DNA of 64,000 bases. Source: Enchytraeus crypticus (Eukaryota > Annelida > Clitellata > Enchytraeida > Enchytraeidae). The position numbers and the translations under genes were made by a program. The notes beneath the pieces are model-generated. The model did not search any database and had not been told where the DNA came from. It saw only the letters and a list, made by a program, of their open reading frames with translations. Shown piece by piece: positions 8,201 through 57,500 of this stretch (positions are counted from its first letter, which is position 1; every line of letters starts with the position of its first letter). The stretch lies in contig CAJHZI010000444.1 of NCBI GenBank assembly GCA_905160935.1, positions 560,001 to 624,000 on the forward strand. The letters are read 5' to 3'.

Positions 8201-11200
8201 ACTTGTAACTAAATGTAATAATAGTTCAACCTTTTCATCGTTTTTAGACTATAACTTTATTCAATTTGTTTTAGCTGCTTAAAACAAAAATTGTACAATT
8301 TTAATTAGACGTTAAAAATAGGTTTAAAAGAATTTGAAATGTTAAAAATTGTGTATTCAGAATGGCACAATATAATGACCTCTTGCTTATTTTAACATGT
8401 ATAACTTAGTTAACACTTCTAAATTACGTGGTTGTTACGTTGGACAATAATTTATAAAATACCTCAATAACATCATGAATTAAAACTAGAAAAGCAGCAT
8501 ACTTGTTAGTTTCTAGTGAATATTAGTAGGATATCTATACTTTACAATTTAGACAAATCAAATCCATGATACACATACCATCCTAACCCTAAATGTAAAC
8601 TCGCATTATAGTGAATAATCAACTACGTTGATATCTATCACTTTTAAAACCACATGTTTAATCCGTTAGTCAATTTAGACCATTTTCCGTATAACCAGTC
8701 CAGTGAATGTCCGAGATTTTACTCTCAGATCAGCGCGGCTGAGATTCGAACCCACGAGGATTCAAATCACCTCAGGATTTGTCATTTAAAACTTCATGAA
8801 GTTACCCCTACGCTATTTAGACATTATAATAATAAACCCTAGATATAACCCTTATTGTTATTATTTATTATTATTATTATTATTATTATTATTATTATTA
8901 TTATTATTATTATTATTATTATTAGGCCGGTGCGTAATATTCATGTTTTCCTGTATCGGTGGATAGAAATTGAAAGCTAAATAAACCATTTCGTTATCAG
9001 TTTGCGTGGTGAGACCGTTTCTTATCTGCGTTATCAGAATTACTGATGAGTCTGGTTTAGAGCCGAACGTATGAAGTAGTATGTACGAGAGCGCACCCGT
9101 TTTATTGTGTTATCACTAGAGTTATCACTAGTTATCACTGGTGTTATCACTAGAATTATTACTAGAGTTATCACTGGAGTTATAAATAGAGTTATCACTG
9201 GAGTTATCACTAGAGTTATCACTAGTGGCGTTATCACTCAAATTATCACTGGGGTTATCAGATAATTTTCGCTATATGACACTGAGCTGGTAGTATTTAA
9301 AATCATAACCTATCTCACTTTGAGACATCTAAAATCAGGTCTGATAAATACACTAACATATCCCATTTCTGGAGGACATAAATCAGAGCGATATGAGCGT
9401 GTGTTGTTGCTCCAATAACCTGTTCACTCTGTCCTTGGTTCATATGTGCTCGTATGTGCCCATATGTGATCATGTGTGGCTCATGTCTGATCATATGTAC
9501 TCATCTGTGCTCATATGTGCTCATATGAGCACACATGAGCAACATGAGCACATATGAACACATATGAACACATATGAGCACATATGAGCTCATATGAGCA
9601 CTCATGTGTGCTTATATGTGCTAATACATGCTCATATGTGCTCATACGTGCTTATATATGCTCTCACGTGTGCTCATGTATGGTCTCACGGCTTTGTGTA
9701 GGGATTGAATTAATATCAGATTCTCCGATAAGGGCTTGGGTTGTACCGTGCACGTTGTTATACATCAGGCACTTACAGCTAATTAAGATTTGCTTTTCTT
9801 GATTGAGTTAACGTTTCGTTGTTGATGAAGGATTGGGAACAGGCTCAGGCGCGTTCTTGATGGAGTCAATAGGGGTTGTCTAAGTCGATCTGTCTTTATA
9901 TCTATGTAGTAATTGTTTGGGTTATCCGAGTCATTTGAAAATAAAGAAATAGGTTGATGAATTATGCATTGAATAGGTTGACACATTATATATTGAAAGT
10001 ACTTTCTGATGTATTCTGTTACTTCGAATGTCTAAAGCTTATTTTATAAAGGTGATGGTGAACTTTGTAGCTAGATATATGTACATGTACATAGGAATAA
10101 CCATTTGTACATATATTCGGGCATATATGCATACAAATACATGCATACATAGTAGATTGTACTGGATTGTTCTAGATTGTACTTATCATGTTGTAGGTGT
10201 ACTGCATTGTACTAGATTGTACTGTCACGTTGTGTAGCTGTACTGCAGTGTACTAGATTGTACTGTAACGTGTTGTAGCTGTACTTCAGTGTACTAGATT
10301 GTACTGCAATGTGTTGTAAGTGTACTGCATTGTACTAGATTGTACTGTAACGTGTTGTAGGTGTACTGTATTGTACTAGATTGTACTGTAACGTGTTGTA
10401 GCTGTACAGCAGTGTACTAGATTGTACTGCAATGTGTTTTAGGTGCACTGCATTGTACTAGATTGTACTATAACGTGTTGTAGCTGTACAGCAGTGTACT
10501 ATATTGTACTGTATCATGTTATAGGTGTACTGCATTGTACTAGATTGTACTGTAACGTGCTGTATCTGTACTGCACTGTACTAGATTGTACTGCAACGTG
10601 TAGTAGGTGTACTGCATTGTACTAGATTGTACTGTAACGTGTTGTAGCTGTACTGCAGTGTACTATATTGTACTGTGACGTGTTGTAGCTGTACTGCACT
10701 GTACTAGATTGTACTGCAACGTGTAGTAGGTGTACTGTATTGTACTAGATTGTACTGTGACGTGTTACAGGTGTACTGCAGTGTAATAGCTTGTACTGTG
10801 ACGTATTGCAGGTGTACTACAGTGTACTAGATTGTACTGTAACGTGTTGTAGCTGTACTGCAGTGTACCAGATTGTACTGTGACGTGTTGCAGGTGTACT
10901 ACAGATAGGAATGACTCAGAAGTTGGACGAGGGGACGTACATTTGTGAGGATGACGTCATCAAACACGTCATGTTCGTCAGCATTAGAGGTCAGCACTGC
11001 GACAACTGCGCACACAACAACAACAACAGTGAAGCAACAACAACAATAGCAGTGCGACAACAATAACAGTGCAACAACAACAACATTGCAACAACAGTGC
11101 AACAACAGTTCAACAACAATGCCACAACAGTGCAACAACAACAACATAGTACAAAAGCAATAAAATAGTGCTCATAACAACAATAACATAGTACAACAAT

Positions 11201-54500: not shown

Positions 54501-57500
54501 CTCAACAAACCTGATTTCATTGATTGATACATAAAGTGAGATATAAAGATTGATACATAAAGTGAGATATAAAGATTGATACATAAAGTGAGATATAAAG
54601 ATTGATACGTAAAGTGAGATATAAAGATTGATACGTAAAGTGAGATATAAAGATTGATACGTGAAGTGAGATATAAAGATTGATACGTAAAGTGAGATAT
54701 AAAGATTGATACGTGAAGTGAGATATAAAGATTAGACATGATACCATGATGTAGAGTACTAGTGTAACTCAATACCAGCGCGATACTTCTAAACGCTCCC
54801 TGTAGCGACTGCTTACAACTTTGTTATGTATCGTTTACTTCACACTCGGCCATCATCGCCTAATAACTGTAGCTACGGAGTTAGGCTGGGCTAACCGGGT
54901 GTTTAATGGAGATAGGCTAGACTATCTGGGTGGTTAGCTAGTAGAGATAGGCTGGTCTAACTGTGTTGCTAGGTAGTAGAGATAGGCTAGTCTAAATGTG
55001 TGGTTAGTAGATATAGGCTAGTCTAACTGGTGTCTAGTAGAGTTAGGCTGGTCTAACCGGGTGTCTAGTAGAGTTAGGCTGGTCTAACCGGGTAGCTAGC
55101 TAGTAGAGATAGGCTAGTCTAACGGCATGGGTGGCTAGTTAATAGAGATAGCCACCCAGTATACCGATATATCCTGACACTTACTAATACAGGGTACCAT
55201 ACACTTACTGACACTGGTGCCTGACACTTACTGACACAGGATGCCTGACACTTACTGACACTGGGTACCTGACACTTACTGACACTGGGTACCTGACACT
55301 TACTGACACAGGGTGCCTGACACTTACTGACACAGGGTGTCTGACACTTACTGACACAAGGTGCCTGAGGAGATCTGCTCTGTTGATAGCCCTCAGCACA
55401 TCGGTTGCACGTCCTGCCCGTCACTCCCTCCTTGCAGGGGCATTGCCCCGTGGTGTGGTTACATGTGCGCCCCAGCGACCCCACCACGTGACACTCGCAG
55501 GCTGTGTCAGTCAATCAATCAATCAATCTAGCAATCGATCAATCAATAAATCAATCAAGCAATCAGTCAATCATTCAATCACTCACAGGCTGTGTCGATC
55601 GATCAATCAATCGATCAATCAATCAATCGATCGATTAATCAATTTATTAATTAATCGATAAATCAATCTGTCAGTCAGTCAATCAATCAATCAATCAATT
55701 ACTCGATAAATCAATCAATCAATGTATCGATTTTGAATTTATTTAATGTGTTGACTTAATAACAGCAAGAACAACACGATTAGTGTGCTACTTTTGTCCA
55801 TGCCAATATCGATAACTGATGGGTAGAATGTGGATGACCAATAAACGGTGCGAACCAAAAAATCCGAGTAAGCAGTCCAAGGAAGGACATTAGATCTAAA
55901 AATACATTGACATGTAGATTTGCATAAACTACGGATTTAAACGAGTCTATGATGACCAGAAATATTTTATTGACATAATCTACTGATTTAATCGTATCGA
56001 CAAGGACTATGAATATTTGATTGATATAGTCTGCTGATTTAATCGTATCGACAAGGACTATGAAAATTTGATTGACATAATCTACTGATTTAAACTTATC
56101 GACGATGAAGATGAGGCTAACGTTTGCATGTCTTCCTATGAGATATGGGTTTCCTGGGATCTCTGTAGTATCCACTCTTACAGTAGTGACAGTTCCTTCC
56201 ATCAGTGTTGTGCCTACACTGTAGACACACACCTCCACTCCTGTGCCCTGATAGGTTGTAGATCTCCAGGTTAAACCTACACTTGCGCGCGTGAAGGTTA
56301 CAGTTACATGCTGCATAAATATACACACATACAATAGTATACTGTACTAATATACAAATAAACATACAATATACAACATGCATTATACATAAATGGATAG
56401 AAATCTGATGGCAAAAGGATAGAAATCTGGAATAGTCATACCATGGACCTGACACTAGTATGTTCGTTGAAAGAGAGAGAGAGAAGAGAGAGAGAAGATA
56501 GAGAGAAGAGAGAGAGAGAGAGAAGAGAGAGAGAGAGAGAAAGAGAGAGAGAGAGAGAGAGAGAGAAGAGAGAAAGAGAGAGAGAGAGAGAGAGACAAGA
56601 GAGAGAGAGAGAGAGAGAGAGAGAAGAGAGAAAGAGAGAGAGAGAGAGAGAAGAGAGAGGGAGAGAGAGAGAGAGGATAGAGAAAGTTAGTGAAGTACAA
56701 AAAATTAAGAAAGTTAGTGTTAGTACACCACAATGCACATGTTATTTGCTATATTGCTACAATCGAGCATGAAATGTTGCTCGCATTTCATGCTCGATTG
56801 TAGCAATTTAGCAATGAAATGTTGCTCGCATTTCATGCTCGATTGTAGCAATTTAGCAAATAACATGTGCATTGTGGTGTACTAACACTAACTTTCTTAT
56901 TTTTTGTGTCTAGTTGCAATTGTCTTTGAGGCGCATTGATGAATACTAAATAGTGAAGATTTCTGGATTCACATTAGCTCAAAAACCTATAGTATTTCCT
57001 TAAACTCTGCATTCATTTGCCGATATTTTAAAATAAAAATTTTATTGACATTTTTAGCACTTAATGACAAGTACCAAAACTATTTAAACTAAACAAATTT
57101 TCACAATGAATCTTAAGGATCATTACGAGTTTGCTATTGCAGAACCTGCCAGCAATAAAATAAGCACGAAACAAACTAACCACAAATCTTATCTCTAATT
57201 AATCTACACTCTCTGCGTATAATCAACACGACACTATCTCTACACTGTCATTACAGCAGGAGGAATTTTATCATCGGGGGGCTCTGACACCCCCCATCAG
57301 GTTGAACATGACCTCAGGGGTCCAGTCTGGGGTAGGTTAGGGGATCATCGGCTGAGGTAATTAATTGCACACCTCGGCGGATGTTTCTCGGTCATACGAT
57401 CCTCTCTCCCGTGTATACAAGCATTCACATGTTTTCAATTATACCCACATACACAGGAACCGTGGGGGGGGGGGGATTTGACTATTGTGCAACCCTAAAC

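Follow-up and report, generated by a model that had tools for sequence, protein, structure and literature searches.

In amphioxus, tandem repeats lying over intron-exon boundaries have been described in the Adh3, globin, troponin C and PGBD5 genes and were called mirages (PMC3087553, PMC3902484). Their units range from 10 to 160 bp, splicing was found to be normal by reverse transcription PCR, and the mechanism that generates them was called unclear (PMC3087553). Here, we describe arrays of this kind in a stretch of 64,000 nt from Enchytraeus crypticus (contig CAJHZI010000444.1, positions 560,001 to 624,000; hereafter the window, meaning the whole stretch) and in genes located elsewhere in the same assembly. 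They are minisatellite-like duplications that copy the splice site and the adjoining exon bases into the intron and, as such, are mirages in the amphioxus sense. Among 79 introns, 28 acceptors are duplicated versus 11.2 expected, and 10 donors are, also versus 11.2 expected. Since acceptors are in excess and donors at background, the focus of duplication is real, but it lies at 3' splice sites only and not at exon borders generally.

The likeness to the amphioxus mirages concerns several traits. The repeats span the exon-intron boundary and include the splice signal with both intron and exon bases (11 of the 58 borders of the window and 27 of 100 elsewhere), and both 5' and 3' borders are affected. 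Different genes have units of different length and sequence (27 to 230 bp for the acceptor units found here), many copies retain their AG or GT, and the arrays are located in existing introns. The differences are the annelid host, the number of introns counted (the amphioxus cases described being single genes), the bias towards the 3' end and the occurrence of (TGAT)n at many acceptors. A literature search limited to open-access papers found no mirages outside amphioxus, in annelids or otherwise; two further papers contain the word solely within a cited title on enhancers. What is new here is the annelid host, how frequent mirages are in genes chosen on other grounds, the bias towards acceptors and the presence of junctions leading into a microsatellite of the splicing tract.

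Short tandem duplications touching splice signals also underlie a model of intron gain by tandem genomic duplication, the Rogers model (PMC4974935, PMC2891723). That model makes a new intron within an exon, whereas here the end of an intron that already exists is copied into that intron. An intron gained in this way would be absent before the duplication. Among the Arf genes, to which this comparison is confined, the introns were found without it: in the paralog on contig C134, three introns sit at the positions that they occupy in those on C144 and C395, and no acceptor array is present. Therefore, these introns are older than those arrays, in agreement with an initial annotation of the window, which had proposed that the duplications act on existing introns. 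Some Arf arrays are themselves probably older than the gene duplications, the paralogs on C395 and C144 having a common exon breakpoint and those on C102 and C323 similar ones. Zhuo et al., in 2007, reportedly traced human introns to tandem arrays, the introns being born inside the arrays. That case is alike in tying tandem arrays to splice sites and different in that the arrays described here straddle the ends of existing introns.

Going by mitochondrial gene order, the host is probably an annelid and not an amphioxus. The mitochondrial contig C802 carries, in this order, nad3, nad2 (inferred from a broader Pfam family), cox1, cox2, an open reading frame without Pfam match and cox3. AGR codons of COX1 fall at sites that we take to fit serine. 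A position of nad3 between nad1 and nad2 has been given as the annelid pattern (PMC2639372).

Five genes of the window, encoding an Ig/fn3 receptor, SAR1, an NXT1-like protein, EMC6 and a netrin, were rebuilt from open frames and splice signals. The initial annotation had counted 31 introns in five genes; the five genes were retained and 29 introns could be paired, all of them GT-AG, with matching phases and coding sequences free of stops. Each border was scanned for a local tandem duplication over the splice site, with 8 nt scored per side and microsatellite-like matches excluded. Duplications were found at nine of the 29 acceptors and two of the 29 donors, in 11 different introns. Their scores (34 to 202) are to be compared with 8.5 for the best of the other 47 borders and, in 300 shuffles, with a 99% level of 9.5 and a maximum of 14. 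This confirms that tandem duplications straddle splice sites, as had been claimed, at 11 of the sites named, all scoring at least 34. One further site, the receptor acceptor at 20409, which had been put forward as a weak case, did not hold: it is unscored in the scan and, by eye, its array ends about 4 nt into the exon. The 11 duplicated borders are the following.

Receptor acceptor 10894, 10158..10904, + strand: 41-bp unit in about 18 copies, each with an acceptor-like end and about 11 exon bases.
Receptor acceptor 14956, 14686..14976, + strand: two copies 230 bp apart, with 21 exon bases duplicated.
Receptor acceptor 15516, 15390..15556, + strand: unit of 59-63 bp in three copies, with 41 exon bases duplicated.
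Receptor donor 16619, 16578..16735, + strand: two copies 90 bp apart over the donor, with 41 exon and 26 intron bases matching.
Receptor acceptor 18593, 18391..18620, + strand: two copies 180 bp apart, with 28 exon bases duplicated.
SAR1 acceptor 31471, 31240..31505, + strand: unit of 59-60 bp in four copies, with (GTT)n ahead of the AG.
SAR1 acceptor 34183, 33740..34226, + strand: 69-bp unit in five near-identical and two older degenerate copies, with (TGAT)n before each AG and 44 exon bases duplicated.
NXT1-like acceptor 39181, 39173..39617, - strand: unit of 39-40 bp in about 11 copies, with about 9 exon bases duplicated.
EMC6 acceptor 47410, 47213..47427, + strand: 72-bp unit in three copies, in frame and open, with 18 exon bases duplicated.
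Netrin donor 55352, 55173..55368, - strand: 24-bp unit in about 8 copies of the exon end and donor, in frame and open over most copies.
Netrin acceptor 55501, 55492..55725, - strand: one further copy, 88 bp upstream, that includes 10 exon bases and lies within a (TGAT)n tract.

The coexistence of five near-identical copies and two older degenerate ones at SAR1 acceptor 34183 implies either that this border was hit more than once or that the array has long been kept. In the netrin donor array (55173-55368), the strong donor GTAAGT recurs every 24 bases and the frame is open over most copies; therefore, to judge from the sequence, alternative donors could add repeats of 8 residues to the protein.

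To set a background, every third base of the window was tested for tandem duplication. Coverage reached 19.7% of 10,574 points in intron interiors, 4.1% of 1,624 points in exon interiors and 2.6% of 7,920 points outside the gene models, a space that includes a LINE-like stretch (long interspersed nuclear element) and may hold unrecognised genes. Arrays are therefore concentrated in introns. The exon-interior figure comes nearly all from one in-frame array at 2441-2627, in the first Ig exon of the receptor gene: its 45-bp unit, in about four copies, leaves the frame open and adds repeats of 15 residues to the protein. Taken together, the borders of the window are duplicated at the intron-interior rate (11 of 58, 19%), and the window alone therefore shows no focus on borders as a whole. 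Only its acceptors exceed expectation, and weakly so (nine of 29 versus 4.8 expected, P = 0.019 at a cut-off of 15); the genes elsewhere decide the matter.

The count was extended to Arf, CCT and myosin genes picked by family search in the assembly (524 Mb, 802 contigs). Twenty-four stretches were fetched and 21 were used (L042, L043 and L047 being left out), yielding 67 adjacent exon pairs. From these, 57 introns were called with splice-site weights derived from the 29 window introns, the other 10 pairs lying outside the profile-gap filter, and the 50 unambiguous ones were kept. The seven ambiguous introns, left out, include three with acceptor matches and none with donor matches at cut-off 15. 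Matches that were plain partial exon copies (e.g. two on C102) were not taken as exons, and further family matches were left unmodelled, among them a CCT gene on C445 and a number of Arf and myosin loci. The total sample amounts to 79 introns in 26 genes of one assembly. Expected values were drawn from interior points of these introns, no closer than 200 nt to the acceptor and 60 nt to the donor.

In the genes elsewhere, 19 of 50 acceptors (6.4 expected) and eight of 50 donors are duplicated, one acceptor and one donor scoring only 16. For all 79 introns, none of 20,000 simulations reached the 28 acceptors observed, P is 0.73 for the donors, and the difference between acceptors and donors is significant (P = 0.0014). 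The acceptor excess stands at the four cut-offs tested (10, 15, 20 and 30), both for all 79 introns and for the 50 located elsewhere, and it persists without the Arf genes (20 of 59 versus 8.6 expected). Furthermore, coverage on the acceptor side declines from 0.39-0.40 (at 40-120 nt) to 0.14-0.20 (beyond 200 nt), and coverage on the donor side is 0.04-0.17 at all distances. Random placement as the sole cause fits the donors and the window total and fails for the acceptors. The initial annotation had offered two readings, either that duplication is directed at exon borders or that selection removes arrays from the rest of the exon, and had suggested testing the overlap of arrays with exon borders against shuffled positions genome-wide. 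A comparison of this kind, made on the 79 introns against interior points, found enrichment at acceptors and none at donors; the borders of the window taken together were not enriched either. Hence, the first reading survives for acceptors and fails for donors; the second agrees with the low exon-interior coverage and with donors at background but leaves the acceptor excess unexplained.

The acceptors also differ in sequence composition. The last 45 nt of the intron hold a 7-mer of (TGAT)n in the sense orientation in 25 of 79 introns and in the antisense orientation in none, versus 7.3% (sense) and 2.1% (antisense) of 6,357 interior windows; in the first 45 nt, it occurs in sense in one intron and in antisense in six. 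The few simple repeats found at donors thus have the reverse-complement sequence of the acceptor repeats (of 79 introns, six have the ATCA type in their first 45 nt and 25 the TGAT type in their last 45 nt). Moreover, GTTGTTG is more frequent in the last 20 nt of the intron (5.7 per kb) than deeper in it (0-0.5). The general branch-point pattern of animals is yUnAy. TTGAT fits this pattern and therefore the tract may offer a series of branch points. Acceptors with the tract are duplicated in 13 of 25 cases versus 15 of 54 for those without it (P = 0.046). The exon fragments copied in acceptor arrays measure 5-97 nt (median 31.5). In nine of the 28 arrays, the exon fragment is followed by the tract within 14 nt, versus 3.9 expected when positions 20-230 nt ahead of these acceptors serve as reference (P = 0.0027; scripted count, that made by eye being eight).

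The best explanation, which we hold to be somewhat probable, is that these mirages are seeded by slippage or template switching from the exon back into the simple tract at the intron 3' end and are then hidden by splicing. It builds on what is directly observed, i.e. the arrays and their position, the acceptor excess, the tract and, for part of the arrays, the junctions into it. The 3' ends of introns would often be slippage-prone simple sequence, chiefly sense-strand (TGAT)n, right before the AG. Replication or repair synthesis that has passed the acceptor and entered the exon would drop back into the tract on little or no homology, thereby duplicating the tract together with the AG and 5-97 bases from the start of the exon. 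Unequal exchange would then multiply the unit and change the copy number. The duplicates would persist because the acceptor beside the intact exon remains usable; if it is the one used, the mature mRNA can stay as it was, with the surplus exon fragments becoming part of the intron. Selection against the copies would be weak, the intact exon following on from the last of them. Donors, which lack the tract, would undergo background duplication only, their arrays fitting plain tolerance, and arrays in coding exons would be purged unless in frame. Using the matched upstream copy would cause a frameshift or a stop in 26 of 28 cases, the exceptions being EMC6 and the NXT1-like gene, whose in-frame copies may give isoforms; therefore, the copies are presumably skipped for the most part, or their products lost. 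The normal splicing found in amphioxus (PMC3087553) also speaks for this account. Two additional ideas were not retained. One is that arrays grow by new copies next to the exon: in 10 of 13 arrays, copies are less similar to the terminal copy the farther they lie from it, yet the identity of adjacent copies is trendless (P = 0.58). The other is a frame constraint, which is not claimed, 13 of 28 acceptor offsets being divisible by 3.

Several results weigh against slippage from the exon into the tract or against the acceptor excess on which it builds. In the window alone, this excess is modest, with P going from 0.078 to 0.0022 over the four cut-offs, and two of the 28 acceptor matches score below 30, which leaves 26 at cut-off 30. 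The association between tract and duplication is weak taken alone. Nineteen of the 28 junctions land outside (TGAT)n, where other simple tracts may serve, and breakpoint homology, viewed by eye only, is not counted as evidence. Finally, Arf paralogs share some breakpoints and the counts are not all independent, a point addressed by the analysis without Arf genes.

Two other accounts invoke selection in different ways. Extra tracts, branch points and AGs could be favoured because they help weak 3' splice sites to attract the splicing machinery. In 25 arrays, the AG is indeed kept in 77 of 87 copies, i.e. 0.885 versus 0.794 for exonic base pairs (P = 0.011). However, this excess is small and could stem from synonymous change in the live exon, and the matched copy, if used, would in nearly all cases cause a frameshift or a stop, as stated above. 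We consider such selection for redundant acceptors rather unlikely. We give slightly less credit still to tolerance only, in which one duplication rate would apply throughout introns, coding exons would be purged and borders hidden by splicing, with no focus on splice sites. The donors at background, the similar rates of window borders and intron interiors and the low coverage of exon interiors are what tolerance would produce; acceptors at 2.5 times background, with a coverage that declines away from them, are not.

Intron gain or sliding, in which duplicated AGGT proto-splice sites would make new introns, involves the same sort of tandem duplication, and a mirage-based model of gain has been published (PMC3087553). 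Here, it is very improbable: the Arf paralog on C134 shares the three introns although its acceptors carry no arrays, and the copies sit within pre-existing introns. Least credible of all is an assembly artefact or a dispersed mobile repeat. An artefact could be suspected from the five copies of the SAR1 unit, which are 99% identical. However, most arrays hold copies that have diverged (about 70-97% identity), and misassembly makes no diverged copies. As for a mobile repeat, the units are unlike one another in both length and sequence, and a genome-wide search was made with two of the 11 window arrays. The EMC6 array matches only itself, with no second copy. The array at SAR1 acceptor 34183 matches itself and 40 other places, in each case only by its TGAT-rich stretches; the three longest matches span 97-110 nt and have 74-76% identity (20 candidates were scored, with simple repeats skipped). 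No introner-like or mobile element recurring at unrelated places was found for these two arrays, neither of which has a full match elsewhere, and the earlier assertion that no single mobile repeat accounts for the arrays is upheld to that extent.

The genes of the window to which these introns belong are the following.

Ig/fn3 receptor gene, 2262..22049, + strand: 16 coding exons placed, 15 introns; Pfam Ig and fn3 domains.
SAR1 gene, 30733..34977, + strand: six coding exons, five introns; Pfam Arf family, with SAR1 as best PDB matches.
NXT1-like gene, 39017..42723, - strand: three coding exons, two introns; Pfam NTF2 domain.
EMC6 gene, 46688..48021, + strand: three coding exons placed, two introns; Pfam EMC6.
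Netrin gene, 51524..62588, - strand: six coding exons, five introns; Pfam Laminin_N, EGF_laminin and NTR.

From its architecture, the receptor is presumably Robo-like. EMC6 may have one further exon because GTATCCTTT follows the last placed one. Its intron after 47502 contains TTCTTAAC a short way upstream of the acceptor. Donors reading GTATCCT are found at 47503 and 48012 in EMC6 and also in the first introns of ARF_C102 (L050) and ARF_C323 (L051); they resemble those of U12-type introns. Elsewhere in the window, frames at 25036-27413 look by eye like a LINE endonuclease and reverse transcriptase. A short dispersed repeat that by eye resembles a short interspersed nuclear element (SINE) occurs on both strands (e.g. 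12297-12440, 13105-13240, 19500-19600, 20890-20990 and 36210-36345). Outside the window, C259:219813-222410 and C400:245545-248142 show identical chaperonin-family matches, equal in score and spacing, a pattern expected of a duplicated region or of haplotypes left unmerged.

Tentatively, and with clearly less confidence than for slippage into the tract as such, we suggest that the intron 3' ends of this annelid lineage might have been rebuilt from a slippage-prone TTGA repeat that doubles as branch points and on which template switching out of the exon would land, so that the splicing signal itself would generate mirages and convert exon starts into intron at about one third of the acceptors. 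A tie between a splicing-signal microsatellite and duplication hotspots would be a testable link. If about one third of acceptors carry mirages in another phylum, they can be viewed as a natural experiment on how the spliceosome chooses among near-identical 3' splice sites. They would also inform on the one-ended lengthening of introns and on the tandem-duplication route to new introns and exons.

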